NCBI GenBank assembly: GCA_000310025.1
Contig: FN649751.1
Coordinates: 1,973,313-2,019,097, forward strand
Reading direction: 5' to 3'
Length of the DNA: 45,785 nt
Origin: Ectocarpus siliculosus
Taxonomy: Eukaryota > Sar > Phaeophyceae > Ectocarpales > Ectocarpaceae
The notes under the pieces were generated by a model, which had not been told where the DNA came from, did not search any database, and worked only from the letters and a program-made list of their open reading frames with translations. Below are positions 3,750 to 31,779 of this stretch, piece after piece; the stretch's first letter is position 1, and each line of letters starts with the position of its first letter. The translations under genes and the position numbers were made by a program.

Positions 3750-5353
3750 TTAAAGCTGATCCTCTTTCTTGCTTTGGCGCCCGCGGCACCCCGGCGCCCG
3801 GCAAGCGCACTCCATAGCCACCGCCGATCCTCCTAGGCCGACGGTGTGAGGGGGCGGGTACGAGTACAAGAGCTCCTCTCCGGCGGGAATAACCCTCAGG
3901 GAGAAAAAGCAAACGCGCCTCTCTTGCGAGTCACCCTTGCCCGCGGTCACCTGCGGCGGGGAACAACAAAAGACAGAAGCGCAGGGGTAGATGTTGGCCG
4001 GGTTCGAGTTACTTCTACAAGCTGAGTAGCGGGGGGGAAAGGCATATGCGTGTGTGCCCATGTGGCGGGGAGCGACGTTTTTTTTATCGGAAAATCGCCT
4101 CCCGCGATCATTTACGCGACTTGGCGACACAGGGGTGAGCTTTCGGAGCACGGCAGTATAAAAGGCGGAAATAGTCCGCGACCTCGTGCTACATAAATCA
4201 ACCATTTGTTCGAGAGTGCACCCACCAAAACTGTGTGAGAAATTGCTCCACGGGGAGGTCTCCCACCAGCCTTCGCGTACCCCCTCCCCTCTGTTTTCCA
4301 ATCTACCGTGCCATCCATCCTCCCGGACCCGCTTTCTCACCACTGCTGCTACAGCAGGAGTCGACTTGTTTCCAAGTACGTCGTGTACCCCTATTGAGTG
4401 TGTTAACACGACCTAATGATCTTACGCTCAACAAACTATCTCGTGTACGGTTACAAAACCTGAGAAGCGCTCACCGCCAGCATGTAGACGTTTGGGTCGC
4501 ACGAGTGGTTCAAGGCCCGAGCGAGGTTTCCCTTGCGAGTGGCGTCGATGAACATCTCGTCCTCCCCGAGGCGAACAACGCGTTCCTGCAGATCATAACA
4601 GCAAGAGAGAGGGCGCGGTAGTCCAGGAGGAGAGGCGTTACTGGAGGGAGGGGGGGGGGGTTCTGATGGCCATGCCTGCCTAACTAACGAGCGAACGGCC
4701 GTGGAAGAGTGCTGTTCACCCACCCACGTCGTGCTCATTCACCTTGGCGGGTAGCACTTAGCTACGCTTGGTGCCGCTGCAGCAGGATTAGGTACCCGTA
4801 GCAGCGTTAGGATAGAAATAGCCGCAATACCTTAGCTCTGCATACGTACGGTGTGGAGGGTTGCGGCATTCGGAAAACGTCATGCCGAGCATGTCAACAC
4901 TTAGGTGCAGCAAAGCATCACGGGCCGCCGCTCAGGGCAACAGCTGAGAACACGTAACTGGCGTGGATGACCGCCGCCCCAATAGAACGGTGTCAGAGCG
5001 AGCTTGGACGTGTGCGACGGCACCGGGAATCATGACTGAAACGCAGAGCTGGTGCGCCCAAACATAGGCGCTAGTCACCTCCACAGCAGTTCCATCCTAC
5101 GCACCCACGGTGTCCAGTGGCCGAAACCTGCAAAAATGTGTTTGTTTGCTACCCATCATGAACACATACTGATGACTTGAGTCGTACAACCCATTATAGT
5201 ACGTGCATCGTTCGCTCGACATCATACCTGAGTGTTGGTCCGGCGGTACCCCTCGACTCGCTTTTTCGCCTCGTCAAGCTTAATGCGCTCCCCCACGAAC
5301 TCGGCCACCAGCTCATGGGCACCGATGGCTTGGGTGGTGAAGACGCCGAACCC
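3750..5353 (-). CDS. Last three exons of SET gene: SET and post-SET domains
   Basis: Exons 5228-5353, 4475-4585 and 3750-3950, all joined in phase 0. Key motifs in order: GFGVFTTQAIGAHELVAEFV, GERI, FIDATRKGNLARALNHSCDP followed by N (cofactor-binding R/NHSCxPN), VCFFSLRVIPAGEEL, LYSY (position of the catalytic tyrosine), and post-SET CACRAPGC (CxCx4C). The stop is TAA at 3750. The SET-I segment is short (about 10 residues between GYRRTNTQ and GEDEMFIDAT). IDATRKGN is closer to SET2/ASH1-type than to KMT2-type enzymes as I know them, so substrate lysine cannot be assigned. The acceptor before GFGVF (ACAAAAG) has a weak pyrimidine tract. Confidence 0.9.
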
Positions 5354-8300
5354 CTTTTGTTGTGATTTTCACCGTTTTTGGTGACAAAAATTACAAGCAA
5401 GGGAGACAGCCGGGCCGGCGCAACAGCCGCACAAGAGGGAGGTGGCACGGCACGCGTCAGGCACGCAGGCAGCGTATGCATATCACGAACGGAAGAAAGT
5501 CTGCGCATAACTTAAGAAATCGTGAAACTCGAGGGTCAGCGTAAATAAACGTTCATGTCTGTTGCTTTGCAACAACTACCGCCGCCACAAAACTCCGTCC
5601 GTGCAAACAGAAACATGGCGTGCATGTACCCACAGGCGGGCGAGTTTTTCGAAGCCCAGCTCTTTCTCCTACCCGACGCCCCCCCTCCTCCTAAACCCGT
5701 CTTCACCTGTACGGTCGACTTCCCCAAGCGTAGGCGTGTCCTCGAGACGACCGCGATCTCCTTCAAGAACCCCCGGAACGCGCGCAAGTGCCGCCCCGCC
5801 TCCTCCCCGCTCCGCTCCCTCGCCGCGTGGGCCGCCTGCAGCACCTTCCACTCGGGAACCACCGCCTTCGGAGCCTCGCCCTTGATCTCCTCCCCAAGGC
5901 TGGGATTGGTGCCGCTGGGTACCTGGCCGAGGGCATACAGGAGTTCAGGAGTAAAGACTAGGCGTGGACGGCAGCAGGGCGTGGGGACATGATTCGACCG
6001 GTGCCGGTGCGCATACCATGGTAACTTGATGCTCGAGAGCTACAAAAGCCTTGGCTCTCTGGCTCGCAGCTAGGCCTTCGACGACTCATCTCGTGAAACG
6101 CCACCATCCGTGCCGTGATATACGTTGCCACCCCCTCCAAAGTAGTCCTACAATGACAGGCAATCGACTCCCCCTTTTTGACGCATGCAACAGTCCGTGC
6201 GAACAGCGTAAGGCTTATTTACCGGCTGGCCTTCGGGTGACTGGGCAAGGAACTCTCCGTCCGGGGCAGCGAACTGCCGGGTCACCGGAGTTGGCATGGG
6301 AAGCGTGTACGCCCTGCGCTTGTGCAACGTGGGGAGGTCGATGGGTTCACACTTGGCGCTCCCGACCGGTCGCCTGGTTCGATACAAGTGCGAACAGGCA
6401 GGAAGGCGGCGAGTGGGGGGCCGTGATCAAGGCGGCGCCGCCGCGAAGGAACGAGAGCATGAGACATGATCACCTGTGCGTCGTGACGGCCTTTCTGCTT
6501 CCGCTGATGGTTTCTGCTTTCCTAATTGAGACAGCACTACAATAGGTTTTACAGCTTCTGAAGGGCGTCAGGTTTACGATGGTTGGGCATGCGAGAGGGA
6601 GAGTGAAATAATTCAAGAATCAATACCAACACGCCCCACACGTAACACTCGCACCACCAATCGCCTCAGCTCGTCAGCATTCGCGTCAAATAGTCGCTCC
6701 AGTGAGAGGTCGTCGAAACAACTCCTCCTCCGAGTGTTCTTGACAACACTCTTCAATCGAACGGTACACAACGCGGCCATGAAGGTGTCCCAACATGGAG
6801 CCTGTGGATCAGAAGCAGCTGCAACCAACACGCACGCGCTGAGCCTACGGCCGAGACCGCAACTTTCGTCTCTCCTGTCTCAAAAAAAACATCCGCTGTG
6901 TGTGTGGTCTTGGCTACACCCACCTCAAAGCCTTGTCGGTGCAGTCGGTCCTGTACAGCGACAGCGACTCCCTCAGCGCGCTCTCCTCCTCGCCCATCTC
7001 CCCGCGGGTGTACAGCAGCGCCGGGCTCGAAGCCACCGCCACCGCCACCTCGACCGCCGCCTCCACCCTCCCCCGGCGGGCCGCCAGCTCCCCCTCTGAC
7101 CTCCTCTTCTTCTTGCCCCCTCCGCTGCTCGCGGCGGACGACCCTTCCTCCTTGTCCTCCTTCGTCTCCTGCTCCGCGCGGGCGCGAGCGGCCGCGGAAG
7201 CGCGCCTGATGGCCACGTGCATGTAGTACGCGTCCTCGTTGGCCGGGGTGAGCTCGAGGCCGGCGAAGGGCCCGTCGAGCGGCCAAGCATCGGAGGAGGC
7301 GGCGGGGCCCATGATGTTGTGCTGGGAGGCCTTGGTCTCGGCGGAGGCGAGGCGGTCCAGCAGGGCCTGCGCCTGGGGCCAGATCCGTTCCGCACCCTTG
7401 AGAACGTTCCTGGGTTTACAGTGTAACGTGCATTATTCATGGGCAGCGGCAGCGGCGGCGGCGGGAAAGCGGGGGTGTGGGGGTGGGGAAGGCTGAGGGG
7501 TCTTCGTGCGAACGATGGGGGGTATTTTTGGGTTGACCACGTTCAGGAACGAGACATTTGATAGGGACAAGGGAATGTGGAGACACCGTGTCTGTCTCCC
7601 TCAGGTCCCGTCCTAAGTCGACCAAACAACGCGCATGCTCAAGGTGCCACCGATGTCCTATCGCGTGGACCAAAACATGACTCCCACACGCAGGCAAGCC
7701 CGCTAAAAAAGGCACACGCGACTAGGTTGCATACGATACCACACCCCGGGGACCGATCTTCAAAAGCTCGATTACGCCACAATCAATGATACACGTGTTT
7801 GAAAAGCTCTCGACGAGACGGTTCCCAAGCCACCATATTTTTCACCGCCATCACCGCTTGTTCATCTGCAGAGTAAATCGAGCTTCGAGACAAAGGGGGT
7901 TGAGCATCTTACGCACCCCACGATATGTAGAATGCGCAAAAACACGTCCCCTCTTCCCCCTAAACTTACGTGGCCTCCTTGTGGTAGATGGTGCCGGGGC
8001 CGTTGAACGTCCTCGCGTTGGCGCACAGCAGCTGCACGTCCAGGGCGAGTTCGTGGATCGACCCGTACAGCTCCCACTGCGACCGCCGCCGGATGGTCGA
8101 GAAGTCGATCGGGTGCTCGATCGCCTCCGCGTACCCCTCTACGCCGTCGGGCACCGGGTCCTTGAACAGGTTGAGCGGGTCCAGCTGCTGCAGACGGTCG
8201 AGCGCGAGCGTGGTCACCATGCGCAGCAGGCGCCGCCGTTCGATCGGCAGCTGGCCGGCGAGGTCTTCTTGTTCTTGTTGTTGTGGTTCTGTCTCCACGT

Positions 8301-11300
8301 CAAGGCGACTGCCGCCGGCGCCGGTCCCCCGGGAGATGTCGCCGCCGCTGACGCCCCTGCCGTTGCCAACGGCACCACGAGACGTGCCGCCCCCGCCGCC
8401 CCCTTCGCCCCCGCCGCCGCTGCTGCTGCTGCCACCACCTCCGCGGGGGGAGGCATCTCGGCGGAAGCCAAACGCATCCCCTTCCCTGCTGCCCCCACCT
8501 CCTCTTGCCGAGCCAGAGGAGGCGGCCCCCCTCGCAGCGGGAGGGGAGGCCGACTGGCGACGCGCTTCGCTCTCCCGGGCAGCGGCTGCCGCCGCCGCTG
8601 ACAGCTAGGGACGGCGGCCGACCACAACAACAACAACACAACACAGCGGTACGGGGTGAGGGGGGGAACTTGTACTCATGCAAACGCATGCCGGGGTCAT
8701 CAGATCATTGACCTCGCATCCCGGGACGGAGCGATATGCAGGGTTTTGGCCGGCCCAGGCTACGTTTCACAAGGATGAAAAAGAGAACAAGCATAGGTCA
8801 TCATCCTTGCGTTTGCTATGCCAAGCCAGCGGGGGCGCGGTGGGGGGGTCACTTGCTCCCTCAGCCTCTCGCCAAAACTGCTGTTTCGCCAGCTACGGAG
8901 AGGTCTGTTCGCGGTGCCTGCGTGCAGAAAGGTTGACAGGCGGCTAACGCCGACTAAGTCTTAGACCACTATTTAGCTTTCCCCAGACCCTCTCTAGAAG
9001 ATGACGACGAATCAAGGCCAAGGCCAAGCGCATGCATTCGGTATTGTACTTGCTTGCTTGTGCCTGTGGCGGAGAAAAGCATGAGCGAGCAACTGAGAGC
9101 GGTCCTTCCACATGCACATCCCCCCCGACTCGCCGACACCGTACACAGCCACCCCACAAATCAGTGTTTAGCACAACCCTCGCCATACCTCGGCTGAGGA
9201 CGACGACCGCTTTATCCCCGCGTGTCCCCCCCCGGAGCCCGCCGCCCCGCCTTCTGGCTCTCTGGAACGCCCGCCCGCCACGGACGCCTGCTGGCCGTTC
9301 CCCTGCTGCGACACAGCGCCCTGGCTCGTCAACCCTCCGCCTCCCGCCCACGTCGTCCCGCGCAGTGAAGAAGGGGGGCCGGCGCCACGCTTTGGGCGGG
9401 ACCTTCGCTCCCGGCAAGTGGGGCACTCCCACTGGGCATACCACGAGAATTATCGGAGATGGGGGGGGTAGTTGGGGTCGATAAGAACCCGAGTGGAACA
9501 TTGGGTAATCGAAAACACTGATGTAAGCAGCCGGGAAATCTCGATTCAGAATCATCTTATTTGTTTGGTTCCAGGGTACAGAAGCCTTGCAATTATAAGC
9601 CGCCTATTTGGGCGAGGGTCGTCTTGATGTCGACGACCGTCGCACTTGTTCCGTTTCATTCCAACACCGAACTCTGCCGAAGGGGACGATCAGAGTAACG
9701 CCAAACCGGAGATCAAAATACCAACCAAGGCGCAACCACGGTAACCTGAACGATAAAACACTGCATGACAAAAAAGCGCAAAATCAGCCAATCAGCTGGG
9801 CGAGGGCGGAAGGGAGAGGGGGGGGGTGGGGTTGGGGTTGGGGGGTGAGGGGACCAGACAGAGAACAATCAACCACGCCAGGCGGCGACGCAGCATTCAG
9901 CCCACATCCTACCTTGATGCCGCCCCCGACGAGGTCAGACTTTTCTATCCCGTCCTTCCTCTTGAGGCACGGGAAGCAGAAGGAGTGCATCTTCGCCAGC
10001 TCCTGGCTGGAGCAGACCATCAGCCCGCCGTCCGGGTGCAAGCGGCAGTACGCGCACACGTCCATCTTGCCCTCTTGGGTCGCTCGCATGTGTTTCAGGT
10101 TCCACATGCGGTTCTCCTTGCGCAGGGGGTCTTTCTTCCCGAGAGTGACTTTTTCGCGGTCGCCGCCGCCGCCGCCGCCGGCAGCGCTTGCCTTCGTCGC
10201 GGGTGGCGCGTCGTCTTGTTTTTCCTGCCGTGCGGGCCTGCCGCCGCCACCGCCGCCGGCCCCTCCGTCGTTGCTGCTACTCGACGAGGGGGGTCGGCGG
10301 ACGTGAATCGGCCCACTCCCCCCCGACCCGGCGCTGCCCGGCGCCCTCCCGGACCCTCGGGCACCGTGCTTCACCCCGTTACTCTCGTCCCCCTCCACAT
10401 CCATGTGGTCGCTCACCCTACCGCCGTCTCGGGTCTGCCCCCGGCCACCGGCGCTGCTGCTGCCGCCGTCGCGCGGTGCTTCGGTGTCTTTCGCCGGGAA
10501 GCCTTCGCTGGTGCCGCTGCCGTCGCCGCCGCTCCTGCTCGCTCCGCGCGGCGTATCTATTCTCCGCGCTGGTTGTTCCTCCTCAATGCTGCTCTCCGCC
10601 GGTTGAGACTTCCAGCTTGACGAGCCAATCTTGAGGTCGGACGACGGTACACGCGACCGCCAGCCATCTCCCGCAGAACCGAAAGCTCTCGACGAACCCT
10701 CCGCCCCCTCCGCCGCGTCCCTTTTCTCGACCTGTTGCGTGAGAGCGCGCTCCTCCTCGGCGAGCTCCGGGTACCCGGCTTCTGTCGCCACCTCGCTCGG
10801 CACGAGCCCCATCTCTACCATGGTGGCCGCCAGGCCGGCGCGGAAGGGTCCCGTCGCGCGAGCGCCGAAGCTCACCGCCGTGCCGTCGAAGACCCTGCCC
10901 GGGCCCAGCGCTCCGGCGAAGGGCGCCCCGAGCCTCCGCTTGTCGGTGTAGGCATGGTGCTTCGGCCTCTTCCCGGCTCGGGGCGAGATGGGAAGGTGCG
11001 CCGCCAGCGCTCCGAGATCCTCGTCGGCTTTTATTTTGCTGCCGTTCGTTCGCCCCCTCCGGTTGCTGGCGTCTTCGCCGTCCCCCGGTACGCTGCCCGT
11101 CGTTCGAGGCACCCCTCCCTCTCTCCCTCCCGGATTCACGGCTCCGCCGCCATCGCGGGCGGCGGCCTTCTGCTGATGAGCCGGCGTCCGGTTCCGCGGC
11201 CTCGGCCTCTTGGCGACGTTCCTCATCAGGATGTGCACGTGCTTCTCCTCGTACAGCAGGGACCGCAGGAGGAGGTTGTCCAGCTCAGGGGAGAAGACCT

Positions 11301-14300
11301 TGACCCGGCTGACTTCGCGCGGCGGATCCACCGCGTCGTTGACGTTGACCACCATCAGCGGCACGGTAGAGTACCCCTGCGCCGCCGCCACCGCCGCCGC
11401 CTCCTCCGCGGCCGCCGCAGCCGCAGCCGCCGCCGCGGCCGCCGCCGCGCGCTTTGGGTTCTTGCACCTGGCCTTCTTTTCGCGGCTCGTCAGCAGCGGT
11501 GAGGTCGTCACAGACGATGACCTCTCCCGCTGGAGCTCGCCGCCTTTAGGCTGCGATTTGGCCTTGTGGGGTTTCTTCGCCTTAGTCTCCTCGCGTTTGG
11601 TCATCTGCGTGCGATCCTCCGGCGTCCAGTTAGGCTCTTTCTGCTCGAATGTTTTTGGGGGGGGGCATCGGACGAAAGGTTTGCGCCATTTGTTTCCCGG
11701 ATCGTTGGGATGAGAGGACGCGCGCGGGCTATACAATAAAGCAGAGGAAAAGGACCAAAAGTCGAACAACTGAAACGACAGCGTGTGGCGGTAGTATAGG
11801 TCTCGCACACGAAATATATCCCTCAAGACGGCAAGCGTGGCATGCCTTGCAGCAGGGACACAGCGCGAGAGTCTCCAGCGCGTGTATGCTACAATGGATG
11901 TAAGAACTTCGGATTGAGGCTTGTCTCCGTGACTCGGCGCCGTGCTCGTGCATCTGTGTGCGGCCCCGTGTCGCGACAAATCTGTAAAGTAGTTTCCTCA
12001 CGGCAAACGTTCCTTTAGAAAACTCGGCTGGTCGTCTTCACGTGCCGGGATGCTGACGGCAGAGAAAAATTTCTGGTGTGAGTGTGTGTTCGTCCCATCT
12101 ATTCTGGCGGTAGTTTACTCACCTTTCGGTGTAGATCCTATATCTGACGTAGGGAGGTCTTGTACGGGGCGAAAAAAAGTACGACGCTGCTATACATCCA
12201 CAACCCCCCCACAGATGATCAACTCAGGCTTACCCCGGCTATCAGATTGACCCGCCCGGCGTCGGTACAGGATGGGCAGTACCACGGGTCCTCCTCCGTT
12301 TGGCGGTTGGCGGCAAGGTGGCTATCCGTGCCGATCGGGAGGCATTCCTCGTGGAACACCCGGGGGCACTCGTCGCAGCAGGTGAGGTCGCCGGACTCGC
12401 CGCAAGCACTGGGGAGCGCCGAGAAGAGGGACACGCGTGTTGTAGGGGGAGGCAGAGAAGGGTTAGGGGAAGAGGAGGGAAGCGGGAAGGCCTCAAGGGC
12501 CAAAAACAAAAGAAACACTAGGGTTGACAAACATGATGAGAGTCGACATTGAGTGTTTCTGCAGACGTCCGAGCGACGAGGCTGCTGGTAAGCGGGAGAA
12601 CACTTCGGCGCAAGGTCCGCGGACCGTCACGCACTTCCTAACACAAGGCAGACAAGCGCCCTCGATGCTAATACGAATCAATAAAAGCCACACGCCTCCT
12701 TTGTCCCCCCCCCCTCATATCTTCAGCCACCTGCAGAAGAAGTGGTTGCCGTCTTCCCCGACCAAGGTTCCATCTTGCGCGATGCTCCACAGCGAGACTT
12801 CCGCCAGGAGCTCGTCCTTGACCGCCTGGGACGCGGCCTTCCCGGCCCAGTCCTTCCCGCCCCAAGGAGACCGTTTCTTCCCCTTCCCTTTCCCCTTCCC
12901 CTTCCCCTTCGCTCCGGAGGGACCCGTCCGCTCGGAGTCAGGCGGCGCCCCGCCGGCCGCTCCACCCGCTGAAGCACCGACGCCGCCGCCAGAACCACCT
13001 TTCTTGCCGCCGGAGTGCGTCGGAGTGGCGGCGCGGGGATGGCTCCCGGCCACCTTTGCGTTCCCGACCCTGAATCCCGCGGCAGGCGGAGTCACGCCGC
13101 CGACGCCGGTGCCGACGCCGTTGTTAATGTGGCCGGTGTTGGCTTTCGTGGAGCCGTGGTTCATCACAGCGGCAAGGCCTTGACCGGTCCCTTCTTTGTG
13201 CCCCTCCAACCCCTTGGCAACCTTCGCCCGCTTCTGGCCGCCCGCGTCCGCCCCGCCACCGCGAACACCGCTCGGTTTCTTCCCCTTCCCCTTGCGCGAC
13301 GCCGATGACGCCCCGCTGGACATCTCCCCGCAGGCGCCCCGAGCTGGGACGTTGATCGAGAGCTGCGGCCGGACCGGGGGGACGGGTCTCTTGCCACCCG
13401 AAGCAGCAGCGGAAGCGGCAGCAGCAGCGGCGGCGGCGGCGATAGCAGCGGCGGCCGTAGCAGCGGCGGCAGAAGCAGACGCGCCGGGTCGGATGGCCCC
13501 TTTGTCGACCCTGTGGGGAGCGGGAGCAAAGCCTTTGGAAGGGAGGGAAGAGGAGGACGCGGATGCGACGCCGAGCATGCCGAGGCTGGTGGTGCCCTGG
13601 CCTTGGCCTTGGCCTTGACCTTGACCTTGGCCGCTTCTGAACCCGCTGGTGCTGCTGCCGCTGCTGACGCCAACGCCGTAAGCGGCGGCGCCAGCGCTCG
13701 CGCCCCCCCCCGCGGCCGCAAAGTACCCGGAAGCCGCTCCGGCGCCGCCGAGCATTCCTACTGAGGGCGGTCCCATCGCGCGCAACACGCCGTTTCCCGC
13801 TCCCGCCGAGCTTGCCCTCTGAGAGGTTCCAACGCCGGCACCCGCGGACGCGTTGAAGATGACGGACGCAACGCCGCTGCTCCCGCCGCCAGCTCCTACT
13901 CCTCCTCCTCCCCCTCCTCCTCGCGCACGAGACGTGCTGGTGCCCTGGCCGCCGACGTCGCTGATGTCGACCCAGGCGTCGCTGCCTTCTGGACCTTGTC
14001 CGGCACCGGGGTAGTGCCCGCTGAGCACAGGAGGCCTCAACAGGGGAACCGCCTGGCTCGTCTTGATCCGCACCGCCGGCTCTTTTCGCGAGAGGGGGCG
14101 CGTCTCGACCGGCGGCGGCGGCGGCGGCTCGGCCCGCTGCTGCTTGGCAGGCTGCTGCTTGGCAGGCTGCTCGACCTGGCGTGGCTGTTTGGGCTGTTTC
14201 GACTGCTGTTCGGGCTGTTTCGGCTGCTGTGTGACCGGTTGCGGCTGCCTCGGCTGCTGTGTGACCGGCTGTGGCTGCTTCGGCTGCTGTGGCTTCTTCT

Positions 14301-16279
14301 CCTCGGTCTTCTGCGGCTGGCTCGGTCCCTCGGGCTCGTCCGGCTCATCCTCCCAGCTACCGTTCTACCAAGAGACCGCAAGAAGGAATTCAGCGCAGAC
14401 CAAAAGAGCGCGAGCGGGTAAGAAAGCAGCGTGAAAAACGCCCGTCCGGGCCAACGGCGCGGTGTGCACGAGTCCGCCAGCGGGAACGTTGGGTTAGTTA
14501 GGTACAGCAGTAACACGCAGAAGTTTGGCGATGGAGGGAGGGAATAAAGAGCGCGCTGTGGTCTCGCCCAGCGACGCCTGCACGGACAAGATTAACTTAC
14601 AGTCGCCAATGCGTATCGCCTGCGCCATGTACGAAAAAACTAATACTTTTCCATACTGTCGTGTCTCTAATGAACGTGTATCACCGGTGCTATGCACGAA
14701 AAAAACTGTTTCACCTGCAAAAAAAGGGATAGCGTGAATAACGAAGAATAGAAACCAATTTGCTGCAACAGCAGCAGCTCTCCGCGATCAAGTCCAGACA
14801 AAGCTCTTGGAGTGCTTGCTGCTTACCGGGAAGTTAAGCGCGGGGTGGGTGTCGCCAAAAACCCTTTTCGCCTCCGCGTCGTAGGCTCCGGCAGCCTCCT
14901 GTAAGCGCAACACACACACACGAGGGACCCAGCGCAAAACACATCGTCCCACGAAGAGGGGATAACCAAGTAAGTAAGAGCCACAGCAGCAGCTTACGAA
15001 AAAGGCAGAAGAACGGCGACTTTCTCCTTCTTGAATCGACGATCGACCGATAGGCTCCGTGCAAGACAAATGCTGCAAGGTACGCGCGTAGTCATGTCTT
15101 TGCGTGGCAGGAACCCCGGTGCTGTGTCCCGAAACCAACCGCCGGCAATAGGCTCACAGTCACGCGTAACGGTGCTGACATCACTTTCATTCACGGGGCC
15201 GTAAAGTTAAGCGTGCGCGGAAGGAGGAGAGCGTGGCTTCCTTCACCTTCTCGGAATGGTACGAGCCGATGATCGCCTCGCGGCGGCCGGACCGCCTGCG
15301 GATCTTGGCCGTCCACACAGCCGTGCGGACACCGCCGATCCTGGTCGTGCCGCTCCAGTAGACGCCGGTATACCTGCACAGAAAGGAATGGGAGGGTAAC
15401 ATACAGACCCGGGGGGAATTCATTGCATACACTGTTGTCAAAACGAACATACTTTCTATTCGCCTACTATTTGGGCCATCAGGCCTGGGTCCAAGCCGTT
15501 CCTTCAAAATGGTATACCACGTGAACATTGCTTTTAAGTCTTAAACTTGGCCCGTGTGAAACCGGACTTGCATCGGGCGGGAAAACCTAGCACAGCAGCT
15601 CGTTTTTTCGCAGGATTACCGTGCGGGTCCTATTGCTGTACGTTTGTCCCGCAGGCCCCCAACAAAAGAAAACTAGAACCGCCCTCGACACACAGCACCC
15701 AACGGGGGGAAACGATACGTACTTGGATTCCTTCGGCCCTGCTTTGCCGGCGGCCTTGCAGTGCTCGCAGAACCACTCGTCGTCGGGGATCTTGCGGAGG
15801 GGGGGGTCCACGCAGAAGGTGTGGTACTCGCCTTCGCAGCCGTCGCACAGGAGGATGAGGTCCTGCTTGTCGTTCTTCTTGCACACGAAGCAGCCGCCCT
15901 GGTCTAGCGGGTGACCGTTTGGGTCGCCCGCTTGGAGGGAATCAGGGACGGCCGGGTCGGCGGCGGCGACGGCGGCGGCGGCTTCGCCCGATAAGCTGTT
16001 GCTGCTGTCGGCGGTGTTCGTCGAGGCGGCGGCGTTGTTGCCGCTCGCGGTTTGGCTTTCGCCATCGCCGGAGTCGCCGCCGCCGCCGCTGCTGCTGCTG
16101 CTGCTGCTGCTATCCCCGCTGCTGCTGCTATCATCGTCGCCGCTGCTGCTGCTATCGCTGCCGCTGTCGCTGCTGCTGTCATCGGTGCTACTTTCGTGGC
16201 CTTTGACGTTGTTCCTAATGCTGTCGTTGGCGCCACGCGCGAGGGCCGCGGGCCTCGACGAGCTCGGCGGCTTCTCCAT
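3750..16279 (-). CDS. Giant PHD-AP2-PHD-zinc finger-bromodomain-SET protein (putative histone lysine methyltransferase)
   Basis: Minus-strand gene with exons 15723-16279, 15247-15373, 14827-14898, 12731-14364, 12234-12408, 9913-11640, about 9353-9431, 7970-8604, 6924-7409, 6223-6373, 5707-5922, 5228-5353, 4475-4585 and 3750-3950. Phases agree at every junction except around 9353-9431, where the small exon's lower edge is unresolved. The firm exons sum to 6,219 nt, a multiple of 3, so the protein is about 2,070-2,100 residues. Approximate domains: PHD1 130-174, AP2 187-252, Gln/Pro then Gly/Ala-rich linker 253-780, PHD2 795-850, Cys-rich finger 1375-1440, bromodomain 1565-1670, SET 1945-2080, post-SET. 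PHD and bromodomains read modified histones, AP2 binds DNA, SET methylates lysine, so a nuclear chromatin regulator is expected. The order PHD/bromo/SET recalls KMT2 (MLL/Trithorax), but I see no FYRN/FYRC and no extended PHD. ATG at 16279 is the first in frame in a GC-rich leader; an upstream exon cannot be excluded. Confidence 0.85.
5707..5922 (-). CDS. Exon of SET gene: pre-SET region and first SET strand
   Basis: Reads VPSGTNPSLGEEIKGEAPKA, then a helical Arg/Glu-rich stretch, ending RLRLGKSTVQ|GTGAAG. LGKSTVQ continues into GFGVFTTQAI of the next exon, giving the usual SET opening (K-S-x-x-G-x-G-x-F). No Cys-rich pre-SET or AWS is present. An alternative upper edge at 5957 (acceptor GCCTAG) would not fit the phase of the preceding exon. 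Confidence 0.75.
6223..6373 (-). CDS. Short exon of SET gene between bromodomain and SET
   Basis: About 50 codons: RRPVGSAKCEPIDLPTLHKR, then RAYTLPMPTPVTRQFAAPDG and FLAQSPEGQP|GTAAAT. Its composition is that of real protein, unlike the surrounding intron. It joins in phase on both sides if the next exon starts at acceptor GGCCAG (5923). Function unknown. Confidence 0.7.
6924..7409 (-). CDS. Exon of SET gene: end of bromodomain and Ala/Lys-rich region
   Basis: Starts NVLKGAERIWPQAQALLDRL (last bromodomain helix), then a charged Ala/Arg/Glu-rich helical region with KKKRR, ending DCTDKAL-AG|GTGGGT. Two left-over bases plus G of the next exon give Arg, so the phase agrees. No further family domain is recognised. 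Confidence 0.8.
7970..8604 (-). CDS. Bromodomain exon of SET gene
   Basis: The exon starts after TCCCTAG with an Ala/Ser/Gly-rich stretch, passes a QQQEQED tract, and then encodes a bromodomain: LALDRLQQLDPLNLFKDPV (helix Z and ZA loop), YAEAIEHPIDFSTIRRR (the P-x-D-F/M-S-T-I signature), and LALDVQLLCANARTFNGPG with the conserved acetyl-lysine-binding Asn and a following YHKEA. It ends GCC AC|GTAAGT, and the split Thr codon joins to NVLKGAERIWPQAQ, the C-terminal helix, in the next exon. Bromodomains bind acetyl-lysine on histones. Confidence 0.9.
8655..8760 (-). mobile_element. Retroelement tail fragment in SET-gene intron
   Basis: On the minus strand it reads 'GCTCCGTCCCGGGATGCGAGGTCAATG' (in pieces), then 'CATGAGTACAAG' and a C-rich end. 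This matches the tails near 25300, 25760 and 45700 (shared blocks CTCCGTC, GATGCGAGGTCAATG, ATGAGTAC, then a C run). It lies within the unresolved intron between the finger exon and the bromodomain exon, which may have disturbed that region. Confidence 0.6.
9353..9431 (-). CDS. Small exon of SET gene: second half of Cys-rich finger (lower edge uncertain)
   Basis: The acceptor ATGCCCAG at 9432-9438 is followed in phase 0 by WECPTCRERRSRPKRGAG, the expected W-x-C-P-x-C closing motif after the CPCLKRKDG half in the preceding exon. The frame stays open to a TGA at 9330-9332. No donor gives phase 0. The best looking one, GACGAC|GTGGGC at 9352, leaves one base and would need an acceptor 4 bases inside the bromodomain exon (GTCAG at 8601-8605 instead of CCTAG). 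A missing extra exon is the alternative. Confidence 0.5.
9913..11640 (-). CDS. Exon 6 of SET gene: long linker and first half of a Cys-rich finger
   Basis: A 576-codon exon from acceptor GAGCAG (KEPNWTPEDRTQ) to donor ATCAAG|GTAGGA. It includes an Ala run (11395-11450), a folded-looking patch (VNVNDAV, SPELDNLLLRSLLYEEKHVH) of unknown type, basic tracts such as RPRPRNR, and Gly/Ser-rich sequence. The end, DVCAYCR, then MVCSS, then FCFPCLKRKDG, matches the first half of the zf-4CXXC_R1 (CDCA7-like) or a PHD-like Cys pattern, completed by the WECPTC of the next small exon. The finger class is inference. Confidence 0.75.
12234..12408 (-). CDS. Exon 5 of SET gene: PHD finger 2
   Basis: Joined to the previous exon it reads FFCSACGESGDLTCCDEC, PRVFHEEC and, after a 20-residue loop, WYCPSC, a complete C4HC3 PHD finger. 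The loop between the third pair and the last pair (GTDSHLAANRQTEEDP) is a few residues longer than usual. It ends RVNLIAG|GTAAGC in phase 0. Confidence 0.88.
12731..14364 (-). CDS. Exon 4 of SET gene: Gln/Pro and Gly/Ala-rich linker, start of PHD2
   Basis: A single 1,634-nt exon opening with an acidic NGSWEDEPDEPEG, then a QP/QQPK repeat region, a Gly/Ala/Ser-rich tract, an Ala run (around 13440), a GQGQGQGQ run, and near the end a basic GKGKGKGKGKKR run. The last residues (LAEVSLWSIAQDGTLVGEDG, then NHFFC) are ordinary sequence and supply the first zinc ligand of PHD2. It ends TTC TGC AG|GTGGCT, leaving two bases that complete a Ser codon with the next exon. It probably acts as a flexible spacer with nuclear-localising basic stretches. 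Confidence 0.8.
14827..15373 (-). CDS. Exons 2 and 3 of SET gene: AP2/ERF-type DNA-binding domain
   Basis: Exons 15247-15373 and 14827-14898. The split codon AA|G gives K before YTGVYWSGTTR. The next join (HSEK|EAAGAYDAEAK) and the following one (LNFP|NGSWEDEP) are phase 0. The sequence has the AP2 layout: YTGV start, basic strands (WTAKIRRRSGRR), the GSYHSEKEAAGAYDAEAKR helix equivalent to the plant 'GTFDTAEEAARAYD' element, and the closing LNFP. AP2 domains bind GC-rich DNA through the three-stranded sheet. Length, about 66 residues, is normal. The acceptor before EAAG follows a long GT/pyrimidine tract and is convincing. Confidence 0.88.
15723..16279 (-). CDS. Exon 1 of SET gene: acidic Ser-rich N-terminus and PHD finger 1
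   Basis: 185 codons plus two bases; ends at donor AA|GTACGT. Residues 30-75 are Ser/Asp/Gly-rich, encoded by imperfect repeats of Ser codons (agc/tcg). PHD1 follows at about 130-174 with the full Cys4-His-Cys3 set: CFVC, LLCDGC, HTFC and WFCEHC. The aspartate/hydrophobic pattern DLILLCDGC is that of PHD fingers that often read histone H3 tails. A basic PKRRR sequence lies in frame just upstream of the chosen ATG, so the start may be further 5' in an unseen exon. Confidence 0.85.
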
Positions 16280-18773
16280 CGTTTCTCGTCTTCGCTTGGG
16301 GGAGTTGAAGTGTACCGCCCACCACACAAACGAGGGTCTAATACCGCTTCTCTCTCTTCCGATCGCAGACCCGTTTTCTTGTTTGGGTGAATACTGAGGG
16401 AAAACTGCTGCCCGGTCTTCGCTTTGTTTCTCGTCTCGCCTCGCCTTCGATCGAGCCCCCTAATAGTAACGCAAGAAGTAGCAAACCAGCAGCACCGAAA
16501 ACGGTAAACTTGTGTTGAAACAAAAGACGCTCGAAGTCTCCAACACTGGAGGACACGAGAGGAAGTTGCTGCGGTTTGCGAGAGTAGTTGCATTACCTCA
16601 GCTCCGTGCGAACCTCTATGTACGACGCACGACATGTGTACATACGGATCGTGGATACGACGATATTTGCGACATGTTTCAGGTTGCGGCGGGATTTTGC
16701 TTGCTAGCCTCGGGGTCATTCACAATTACTAACCAAGCCAAACTGTTTCCACACGCACCCAAACAAGCAACATCATTGGCCTCGGTCGCTTCCCCTCAAA
16801 CTCTAATACATCGATATATATGCTACTTCTTACAACCAAACCTTTGGATTTGAAATCCGTGAGCGACACACAAGTTTACGCACAGCACAGAGAGTGTGGC
16901 TGCTGTAGGGAGTGCCGGTGCCGACAAAAAAATACTGCCCGGGCTCAAGGAAATCCGATCATCGATTGCGCCCCACGCAGAAACAACACAATATGCGTCC
17001 ATATCTTGACGATTCCGGTGTAAGTGAGACAAGGATCCATGTACGCGTAGAGGCGGTGGGTGCCCCTGTGCCCCCCGGGGGGTGGGTGTCTGTCCCTAAA
17101 ATCTCTCTACATTACAAAAGCAACAGGACGCACGAGTACAGAGAGGGGTTGGATCACGTGTTCGCGTCCACACAACACAAGCTGATTGGGAAACGCGCGG
17201 TGCGATGGATTCACCTGTGCGCCGCGTTAGAAGATGATGGCGCGATGCAGGGATGAGTGATCAAGGCCGCCGTACGGCGCAAATGGGTTGAACCCAAGGC
17301 GTACGTAGAGACTTTGTCAGGCTTTCCTACGATATTTTTGTGTCCCCGGATCTCTCCTGCCTTCCGGTCGCTCTGTCCGCATCTCTCTAGAAGCTAGATC
17401 GAGAGTCCGTGCTCTGATCCACTGGTTCTCAAGACAAAGAACACATGTACTATACGTTTCGGTTAAGCGATTGGTACCACCGTATTGGACTACGTATTAC
17501 AAGCTCAGAGCTTTGGTTTGATTGGTGGGAAGCGAGTGGGTTTTTTTTTTTTTGTGTGGACTACAGCAGAGAGTTTTTTTCCCGCTGTCCTCTGTCTGAC
17601 CCGGCCGGTGCGCCGAACGCCAAACATCCAAACATACACCGAAAGGTGTAGACTGGCGCCCACAATAGACGGAACGACAACACGTGAACATACAGAGTAG
17701 TTTTAGTGTCCTGCTGAACGACATGTGTCCAACGAACTGATCCAAGCAGAGTACACGGGTTCTCCCTCTGTCTTTTCTACGCCGCCTCCCTGTCAATCGT
17801 GGACCTTTTTTGACCCTCTTGATGATGTTGTCAATCAAGAGCTCACACGCTTTCGATACACTTGCACACGCTATGAACGAAAAGTGTTTTACCTATCGGT
17901 GTACAATCTGGACATGAAATCGTTGTATAACACTCATGCGCACCACACCTTGTAAGGTGTGAGTGAAACAAAAAACACAAAAAGCGGTTCAATTGATGAT
18001 ACGCTACCGTAACAGCCGTACATATCTAGTAGTCTACAGTCAAATCTCAAAACACCGCCTCTCTCTGATGTTCATTCATACATAAGTACAGTAAGCACTC
18101 TTGCCCCACGAATCTCCATTCCAGCCTCGAAAACGTTTGGCTCATTCACCCTCCACCCTCCACGGATGGACAGCAGCATAGTCTAAAATATCGTAATTAA
18201 TTCCGGAAGTACTAAATTACTCCAAATCTTGGCGATCGCTACGGCTCCAACCCGCACGCTTACCCCCCCTCTCTCCTTTAAAATACCTTGCAAATGACTA
18301 GGCATGTAGGCCTGAATACTGGAACGAATGTCCATCCCTTCACCCCGCAACAACCGCTACAAACGTAAAATAGCCTACGGCTGGAGTATGTAGCGTCGGG
18401 TGGGTCGATTCCTCATTGTATTCCAACACCACCACGAACAAGTTGCCAACAACTACTACTGCACAGTGCTGTGCATGGACGCGGGTCTGAAACGTGACAT
18501 GCCGTGCCTCTGCGCTGGTGCGTCCATTGTGGGGGCGCGCTTTCCCTTGTCGACTACCTGTGCACCAAACCCCACGTAGTGCGGCACCTTTACGCGATCT
18601 CACACATCCCGCCCATGAATTTTCCGTACAACTCAAAAATTTCAAGCGATGGTTGACACGTCGACGTAAATCATGACATTCCACCTCTGGTAATAAGAAG
18701 ACGGGTATAGACACACCGTCGGCCGCGCCGTTGCTTCACCGTTCTCTTTAACGGAAGTGAAGTTCCCTTCAGT
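16280..18773. other. Intergenic region between the SET gene and the STPGR gene
   Basis: Should include the SET-gene promoter and leader (C/T-rich sequence near 16400-16460 on the minus strand) and the 3' flank of the STPGR gene. Open frames on both strands carry no recognisable domain. A perfect hairpin lies at 17944-17961. Nothing else is supported. Confidence 0.5.
17944..17961. other. Perfect 18-bp palindrome (hairpin)
   Basis: CACACCTTGTAAGGTGTG pairs over eight bases around a central GT (seven bases with a 4-nt loop in RNA). Intergenic; no role assigned. Confidence 0.6.
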
Positions 18774-29815: not shown

Positions 29816-31779
29816 ATGTCGACCTTTGACGATGACGATATGGACTTCGGGGGTGATGATGATGGGGTGAGCTTGGAATTTTTGGAAGCTCTAGCAGCAG
29901 CAGTGTGTGTTGAGAACCAGACACCTCGGATCTCCACTCTTCCTCCCCAAAATTCAAAAATGAGCACAAACCAATCAATGCTCTGTACCCTTGGTATAGC
30001 AAGGATGGTCTGCCCTTTGTATCAGCACGACACGCGCGCGCTTCAACGAGGACGCATTGGAATGGATTGTGGGACCCCATGCATCAGCATCCCATTCCAT
30101 TCCGCCTCTCCTCACTACAATGTGTTGCGGACTTGCCCTCACACCACCGAGCTCGCAACTGGCCTGTATGTCCCTACACTCGCAACAGGACGATTTCTTG
30201 ACGGGCAAGCTTGCAGCGTTGGGCATCGACGAAGACCTAGAGCTTTCGGGGGGCGAAGAAGAAGATGACAACCGTGCTCCCGCCACAGACCCCGCCGCCG
30301 ATTCATCCAACAAGCCCCCCGGCATCGTGGCACCATCGCCACAGCAGGCTTCCGCTTCCACAGCAGTAGCAGCAGTTCCCGCTGCAAGTCGTTCGACGGC
30401 TCCCGCGCCCGCTGACGATTGGGGAGCACCACCAAGTGAGGGCTGCTCCCCCGGTGACGCGGGCATCTGGGGAGAAGTAGACTCGTGGGGGGAGACCCGA
30501 ATAGCAACACCAACCGTCGAAGCACCACCCGCTGCGGGAGGAGGACGGGGAACAGCCGTGGAAGATGGGGAGCTCGTGCAGATGATCGACCAGCCCTTGC
30601 GGACCTCTCGCGGCAGGGAGCAAAGGTCTGCCCGGGACAGCGGTAGAGGCGGGGGGCGAAGAGGCGGGGGTGGCGGCGGCAGGGGCAAGCGGGGGCGGCC
30701 GAAGAAGGACGGCAAGGCGCGAGGGCGGAACGTGACGATCAAGGAGTGCGCCGAGTGGGTGTGCGAGCGCCTCGGCGAGCCCAAGTACTACCTCATGTGT
30801 CAAGTGGTGTCCACCATCGGTTACAACAAGACCAGGGACTTGCTGGAGGCTGTGCAAGAGACCCAGGTGAGGTGGCGCTGCTGGTGGTGGTAGGAAAGAA
30901 AAGGGCGGAGAAAAACGGCGTCACCGTTTGCCGCCGCAATGTCGTTCAAAAGTTTGACGACAAAGCTCTGCTGTGGCCTATTGCCGAGCGACGAACTAAC
31001 CGGATGGCATGCGCATAGGTGCGACGACAGTGTTTGCTCAAGAAGTAGTCACGTGGCATATTTTTTCTTGTCAGCTTACATCAAGTCTGCTCACAGCTAG
31101 TCTGACCTGCGGGGCGCTGGTAGCACACACTGATGCCCTAAATACTGTTTCATCTTTCATCGGGTCCTGATGACCTCTGCGCTGCTCTAGTACGCCGAGT
31201 GTCGCCAAAAGTAGTTCTACAGACTACACGCCGGTGAGCGTGAACAACCCCAACCCACGAAGCACGAATGCACCCTTCGACGACCCACCATCGTGCCTCG
31301 AAACGCCGTTGTTGCTGCTGTCAAGACACACCCCTCAACCCGCCCCGCCACCCCCGCCCGCCCACAACACACGCCCAACAAAACAGGAGACGGGGGGTAT
31401 GCCGACCGCGGACGGGAGTCGGAAGCGCACCGCGGGAGGCGTTTTCTTCACCCTCCTCAAGAAACACATGGAACCGTCCCGGCTCAAGGAGCTGTACGCG
31501 GACGAGCTGCGCGTCAAAAAGGAGAAGGACAGGGCGCGCAGAGCGGCCAACAAGCGCAAGGCCGAGGCGGCCTTGGCAGGGGAGGACGTCATGACGCCTA
31601 GAAATCCCCCGAGGAACAGAGGGCGCGGCGGCGGTGGCGGCGGTGGTGCCACGAGGGCGGGGAGAGATATGGGGAAATGGGCCGGCCCTACCGCCGGAGC
31701 GGGCGGTAGGGATGGTTGCGGTGATGCTGTTGCGGCGAAGCGCGCACGAGCGGGCATCAGCAGCCTCTCCAAAGAATGA
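29816..31779 (+). CDS. PHAX-type RNA-binding-domain protein (RNA_GG_bind) with AT-hook-like motif
   Basis: Exons 29816-29866, 30189-30866 and 31387-31779; all joins are phase 0, 1,122 nt, 373 residues. The start MSTFDDDDMDFGGDDDG is acidic and joins DDFLTGKLAALGIDEDLELS. The middle is Ala/Pro/Ser-rich. Residues about 180-192 hold GKRGRPKKDGK, an AT-hook-like basic motif. The RNA_GG_bind domain follows: ECAEWVCERLGEPKYYLMCQ, VVSTIGYNKTRDLLEAVQET, then GGMPTADGSRKRTAGGVFF with the family's GG and R-R/K-x-x-G-G-V-F-F signature. The tail is a Lys/Arg-rich helix (LKELYADELRVKKEKDRARR) and a Gly-rich end. PHAX exports capped snRNA precursors together with CBC and CRM1. Several protists have only the core domain, so the exact role is open. 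Family assignment is strong. Confidence 0.88.

Follow-up and report, generated by a model that had tools for sequence, protein, structure and literature searches.

An Ectocarpus siliculosus SET-domain protein predicted to join PHD fingers, a divergent AP2 domain and a bromodomain in one polypeptide

Introduction

Histone methyltransferases commonly find their genes via separate factors. The locus analysed here, in a window of 45,785 nucleotides of Ectocarpus siliculosus (the whole stretch of DNA that was analysed; contig FN649751.1, positions 1,973,313 to 2,019,097), raises the question of whether a single polypeptide might carry a SET domain, histone readers and a DNA-binding domain of its own. 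In the portions available to us, PMC13076208 reports that brown algae lack PRC2 and also DNA methyltransferases except DNMT2 homologues, and that their SET proteins include trithorax-related ones as well as two families specific to brown algae; PMC3145265 lists TRX-related proteins of E. siliculosus; and PMC12629598 records AP2 domain proteins in Ectocarpus. The window gene or its paralogue, described below, may be among the brown-algal SET families of PMC3145265 and PMC13076208, the available portions of which do not mention AP2 together with SET.

Results

Fourteen exons form one reading frame

The locus reads as 14 minus-strand exons, from 16279 to 3750, which join via 13 introns, all of them GT-AG, into one open frame of 2153 residues that begins with an ATG at 16279 and ends with a stop codon ending at 3750. 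The encoded order from N- to C-terminus is PHD1, AP2, PHD2, a zf-4CXXC_R1-like finger, bromodomain, SET and post-SET. An earlier note on this DNA had proposed phase-consistent exons encoding PHD, AP2, PHD, a Cys-rich finger, bromodomain and SET; the exon phases bear this out, and all six parts are present in the proposed order and on the proposed strand.

E1 (15723..16279) carries the ATG, a Ser-rich N-terminus, PHD1 (residues 130-174, about 15892-15758) and the first AP2 residues (KESK), with relatives P0010, P0011 and P0012; E2 (15247..15373) holds the first half of AP2 (YTGVYW...IIGSYHSEK; relatives P0010 and P0013) and E3 (14827..14898) the second half (EAAGAYDAEAKRVFGDTHPALNFP; relative P0010). 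E4 (12731..14364), open throughout its 1634 bases, encodes a long low-complexity linker and the start of PHD2 (HFFC), the remainder of which lies in E5 (12234..12408; SACGESGDLTCCDECPRVFHEECL...WYCPSC; PHD 2.6e-7 on the fragment). There follow E6 (9913..11640), with a linker and, from about 10068, the start of the zf-4CXXC_R1-like finger; E7 (9189..9431), where the finger finishes (WECPTC, to about 9408) and a linker follows; E8 (7970..8604), with a linker and, from about 8202, the bromodomain; E9 (6924..7409), with the bromodomain end and a conserved segment (SSDAWPLDGPF); E10 (6223..6373), a conserved segment with VGSAKCEPI and PTPVTR; and E11 (5707..5922), a pre-SET segment without a Cys-rich pre-SET. 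The SET domain is spread over E12 (5228..5353; part 1, GFGVF motif), E13 (4475..4585; part 2, NHSCDPN) and E14 (3750..3950; part 3, GEELLYSY, to about 3858), the last of which also encodes the post-SET (CACRAPGC, about 3809-3786) and the stop. Joining the exons rebuilds AP2 across E1/E2 (SKYTGVYW) and E2/E3 (SEKEAAGAYD), and PHD2 across E4/E5 (HFFCSACGESGD).

Base composition separates exons (G+C 0.61-0.74) from introns (0.51-0.57). The third codon position has the highest G+C in every one of the 14 exons taken whole, whereas the 13 introns display no consistent period-3 pattern of G+C, with differences of up to 0.11. Within E4, cut into eight sub-stretches, two (13956-13753 and 13548-13345) show the reverse of the third-position pattern and another two show it weakly; these four are of low complexity. 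Triplet-type repeats rich in GCT and CCG occur in coding exons at 16066-16205, 14099-14313 and 11380-11448, where they encode Ser-, Gln/Pro- and Ala-rich runs; variation in their length between strains is possible.

The start codon at 16279 is likely but not certain, because P0011, a gene model of Ectocarpus sp. 4, extends upstream of it. A stretch similar to the upstream exon of P0011 is found at 17211-17280 (minus strand) and may be 5' UTR, since the frame from there to the ATG seems not to be kept in this genome. A promoter scan of the upstream region gave 2 sites versus 2.0 in shuffles, and its consensus, being bacterial only, is uninformative here. Elsewhere in the window, an open frame of 297 codons on the plus strand (30000-30893) encodes, as read by eye, an AT-hook-like GKRGRPKK stretch.

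Homologous gene models and the case for one gene

Homologous models came from three protein searches: the first with residues 1600-2153 against proteins of about 1184-3767 residues (8000 candidates scored, with at least nine matches; of those listed, P0001 and P0002 belong to the family), the second with a PHD1-AP2 query against proteins of about 220-700 residues (4 of 94 matched) and the third with a bromodomain-SET alignment (at least eight matches among 8000 scored candidates; among those listed, P0014-P0019 belong to the same family, several as fragments only, and P0020 and P0021 are other SET proteins). P0010, a partial record from Ectocarpus sp. 12, aligns with PHD1, AP2 and the first part of E4 (residues 98-341; 91.5% identity). 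P0002, from Ectocarpus CCAP 1310/34, is without SET and aligns in two blocks within residues 486-1991, with 63-64% identity, and P0014, from Ectocarpus sp. 12, aligns with residues 1129-2153 at 93.0%.

Six models from Ectocarpus and relatives were checked junction by junction, and 12 of the 13 junctions are reproduced free of gaps by at least one of them. P0010 does so for E1/E2, E2/E3 and E3/E4, and P0002, which is orthologous to the paralogue, for E5/E6; P0014 reproduces eight junctions, among them E6/E7 (also gap-free in P0015, P0002 and P0017), E7/E8 and E11/E12 (also gap-free in P0015 and P0001). The bromodomain is joined to SET in both P0015, from Scytosiphon, and P0001. P0014 spans the interval from 9353 to 8604, one of two places at which, according to the earlier note, a break between transcripts would count against a single polypeptide. 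The other, between the AP2 exons and PHD2, is bridged in two steps: P0010 joins AP2 to E4, which contains the start of PHD2, and P0002 joins E4 to E5, but it is the only model to do so and its splice is six residues longer, the extra residues breaking the PHD2 Cys pair. The exact E4/E5 junction is matched by none of the six models, and no homologous model reaches residues 342-485, inside E4, where the link is the open frame of E4 itself. Among the matches listed for proteins of about 1184-3767 residues, no single model has both AP2 and SET.

These two places leave a slim chance that the locus comprises two neighbouring genes, one encoding PHD1 and AP2 (E1-E3, perhaps with the start of E4) and the other PHD2, finger, bromodomain and SET, starting inside E4 as the paralogue might. 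Such a division would fit a paralogue that is without PHD1 and AP2, a P0002 model that begins in the E4 equivalent, the in-frame Met found in E4 from residue 449, the weak or reversed periodicity of the low-complexity middle of E4, and the short PHD-AP2 protein that would result from reading E3 into its intron, where a stop is met after 12 codons. Yet P0010 splices E3 to E4 and continues upstream of the first E4 Met in the same frame, at 88.8% over 89 positions; only 462 bases lie between E3 and E4; and E4 stays open for 544 codons, a run of at least 543 being reached in 1.6% of 2000 first-order resamplings. The start Met of P0002 was considered as the sign of a separate gene start and rejected, as the paralogue in this genome has Lys there and its frame continues upstream. 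We judge the locus to be, very probably, a real and single gene, and the predicted order from PHD1 to SET on one polypeptide is well supported by the exon phases, by the domains that the junctions rebuild and by the models of homologous genes.

Reader domains

In the joined protein, Pfam matched PHD (1.1e-15, two stretches, PHD1 in E1 among them), bromodomain (5e-15, from E8) and SET (2.1e-19, from E12). The nearest PDB relatives of PHD1 are fingers of KDM5/Lid, CHD4 and BAZ2, with KMT2C/D close behind, and those of PHD2 are in CHD4, ZMYND8 and PHF21A; several of these fingers read unmodified H3K4. The bromodomain is nearest to those of polybromo, BRD9 and BRD7 and has the conserved Asn (NARTFN, aligned to NAMTYN of BRD9). 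The zf-4CXXC_R1 family scores 9.1e-4 and 19.8 bits in the whole protein and 26.1 bits on the fragment alone, against a cut-off of 22.7; its alignment spans 60 of 99 positions, and relatives score 23.5, 21.5, 18.8 and 16.9 bits. An NCBIfam scan returned only matches far below cut-offs.

A divergent AP2 domain

The earlier note had suggested an HMM search of the joined protein for PHD, AP2, bromodomain and SET; all were matched by Pfam except AP2. With E up to 10, PF00847 matched neither the fragment nor the full joined protein, in a scan whose filters drop most matches above 0.1. Neither was AP2 found in a six-frame PF00847 search of the E. siliculosus genome (492 contigs, 189.5 Mb; three candidates scored), as expected because the domain is divergent and split by an intron. 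A profile built from five plant AP2 domains gave 27.9 bits on the AP2 piece, compared with a maximum of 13.0 in 20,000 shuffles, and 21.2 bits when scored within the whole protein. In the PDB, the AP2 piece matched plant WRI1 at E 1.5e-7 for both repeats together (single repeats, 0.02-0.1), followed by two ATP sulfurylases (0.15) and then AtERF1 (0.38), and a single hhalign comparison with plant AP2 gave 93.6%, spanning strands 2-3 and the helix. Given the similarity to WRI1, the shuffle-controlled plant profile and hhalign, we assign the stretch, at residues of about 180-260, as a divergent AP2 domain.

It is barely credible that this resemblance is due to chance. ATP-sulfurylase is the sole Pfam family listed for the piece, and the two ATP sulfurylases outrank AtERF1 in the PDB search; but the Pfam match, at 17.4 bits, lies below its cut-off of 24.3 and involves only residues 14-62 of 81, and both the profile score, more than any shuffle attained, and the WRI1 match speak for AP2. 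An ATP-sulfurylase identity was accordingly set aside as chance.

Whether the domain still reads DNA sequence is a separate matter. There is an appreciable, if minor, probability that it makes general contact with DNA or nucleosomes, or offers a protein-binding surface, with targeting left to the PHD fingers, the bromodomain and partners. Besides the missing Pfam match, strands 1 and 2 are set about 10 residues further apart in each of the three aligned algal sequences (window, P0010 and P0013), and the arginines with which AtERF1 reads the GCC box are not conserved. On the other side, positions that anchor the AP2 fold are retained (GV, WTAKI, IGSY, AA.AYD, G and NFP), and identities of 71-72% between the first AP2 exon and the distant relative P0013, and of 95.9% over linker and AP2 in Ectocarpus sp. 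12, suggest selection on the domain. The window AP2 may bind DNA sequence-specifically, and this is the reading that we carry forward.

The SET domain forms an algal clade

The C-terminal SET with its post-SET matched Set1 best in the PDB (73.1 bits), followed by KMT2A (65.5), SUV39H2 (62.4) and SETD2 (61.1); for the Scytosiphon SET, Set1 (88.6) and KMT2A (70.8) come before the first member of another class (66.8). In SET trees of 16 and 17 sequences, the family falls in its own algal clade, apart from all other rows, with support 98. An attempt to place the SET with the H3K4 class by phylogeny did not single out that class: with trees of 16-17 sequences, AU values for the clade joined to the H3K4, H3K36 or H3K9 class were 0.50, 0.10 and 0.55, none of them rejected. 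bp-RELL and c-ELW exclude the H3K36 placement.

Five family rows were compared at motif level: window, paralogue, Ectocarpus sp. 12, Scytosiphon and the second copy in P0001. In all five, PNC is changed to PNV or PNL and YDY to YSY or YAY, and there is no aromatic residue at the column aligned with Y3883 of MLL1, Scytosiphon having a Phe one position earlier; the window SET alone has RA in place of RF beside NHSC. These changes would be expected if the SET domain were weak, inactive or acting on a non-histone protein and the whole protein were mainly a reader and scaffold, to which we give a small chance. Similar changes are nevertheless seen in other SET classes outside the family (PNC is also missing in P0021 and EHMT2, and YSY is also found in P0020), and all five rows retain GxG, NHSC and the Tyr of YxY, and four of them the post-SET CxCx4C.

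Two further sequences bear observations of their own. P0001 (eukprot g10027.t1) contains the bromodomain-SET unit twice in tandem, with halves 95% identical; NHLC replaces NHSC in the first copy, and PHD and AP2 are not listed for it. An uninterrupted SET-like frame at C2:113444-113773 in the E. siliculosus genome is 37% identical to the window SET, has NHSC replaced (KNNSEKPNVY) and is perhaps a degenerate third relative.

A nearby paralogue without detectable PHD1 and AP2

A census of SET domains in the genome, made exon by exon, returned at least 17 matches. Among them is a paralogue (C26:2160855-2170767) on the same contig and strand, about 142 kb beyond the end of the window, with PHD2, finger, bromodomain and SET and with 75-81% identity to the window gene over the exons compared. 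No match to PHD1 or AP2 better than E 0.8 was found near it in 38.4 kb, reaching about 15 kb upstream. The PHD1-AP2 query gave 10 matches in the genome, four of which are exons of the window gene; of the other six, four are confined to the PHD part, and the remaining two enter the AP2 part of the query (L010, to residue 75, and L007, to residue 102) but matched only PHD, and not AP2, when compared domain by domain.

P0002 and P0017 group with the paralogue, whose branch is longer than that of the window copy, and P0014 groups with the window copy. P0002 had been considered an orthologue of the window gene and was rejected as such, the locus at C26:2160855-2170767 showing that it belongs to the paralogue. 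Since Scytosiphon falls outside both copies, either these split after the Scytosiphon lineage or a second Scytosiphon copy is missing from the data. Pieces of PHD1 and AP2, which may or may not be linked to SET there, are present in the more distant relatives P0012 and P0013 and tentatively favour a loss of PHD1-AP2 from the paralogue over a gain by the window copy.

Discussion

On the evidence of its domains, we lean towards regarding the window protein as a chromatin writer of trithorax/KMT2 type that carries a DNA-binding module of its own. Like KMT2/trithorax (MLL) and SET1 proteins, which provide the best PDB matches to its SET, it ends in SET and post-SET, and KMT2A likewise has PHD fingers and a bromodomain upstream of SET. 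Animal KMT2A/B have a DNA-binding CXXC domain of their own; the window protein differs in having AP2 where these have CXXC, which is not among the 11 Pfam families listed for it, and its SET falls in a clade of its own (support 98), whose joining to the H3K4 class the AU test does not reject. FYRN and FYRC are not listed in the joined protein (Pfam, E up to 10), and extended-PHD gave no match over the Pfam cut-off; the same scan of P0003 placed FYRN over the cut-off and FYRC below.

The earlier note knew of no described plant or animal methyltransferase with this order. This holds for the exact order, which was not found in the texts examined in a literature search on architectures with AP2, SET and bromodomain, but not for the combination of AP2 with a methyltransferase. 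According to the available part of PMC5725981, a survey of SET proteins in Archaeplastida, the trithorax class III-3, which like the window gene has PHD and SET without PWWP, carries additional AP2 domains, and the legend to its Fig. 5 names AP2 as well as bromodomain among the domains of the trithorax class; the Archaeplastida types in its Table 2, unlike the window gene, have neither AP2 nor bromodomain in the order named. AP2 with PHD-SET is therefore already reported in Archaeplastida, at least in that part of the source, and what is new here is this predicted brown-algal variant and its domain order. No AP2-SET fusion is described in the available portions of PMC3598677, PMC12246861 and PMC4501334, the last of which reports apiAP2-type genes to be absent from the stramenopiles scanned there. 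In apicomplexan complexes of ApiAP2 and PHD proteins, as presented in the accessible part of PMC8396726, AP2 and chromatin readers cooperate as separate proteins, whereas the window gene would place AP2, readers and SET in one polypeptide.

How might such a protein work? AP2 would contact DNA and bring the protein to, or hold it at, selected promoters; both PHD fingers, which resemble fingers that read unmodified H3K4, would read the H3 N-terminus, and the bromodomain would read acetyl-lysine. Because of these two kinds of reading, binding would be strongest on acetylated nucleosomes that do not yet have H3K4 methylation, where the C-terminal SET would then methylate a nearby lysine, with H3K4 as a first guess. 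Lacking PHD1 and AP2, the paralogue would perform the same chemistry minus the DNA address. Put tentatively, it is plausible that the window gene encodes a self-addressing methyltransferase, in which AP2 reads a DNA motif while the same chain reads the histone state and writes the mark, and that the nearby duplicate lost this address or never gained it.

If this proves true, the protein would by itself connect DNA sequence with chromatin state in brown algae, a lineage whose complex multicellularity arose independently and which, in the available part of PMC13076208, is reported to be without PRC2 and non-DNMT2 DNA methyltransferases. The paralogue, with no detectable PHD1 or AP2, offers a natural comparison for the window gene, and a natural AP2 fusion beside a paralogue without AP2 would allow a direct test of what an address domain adds to the enzyme.
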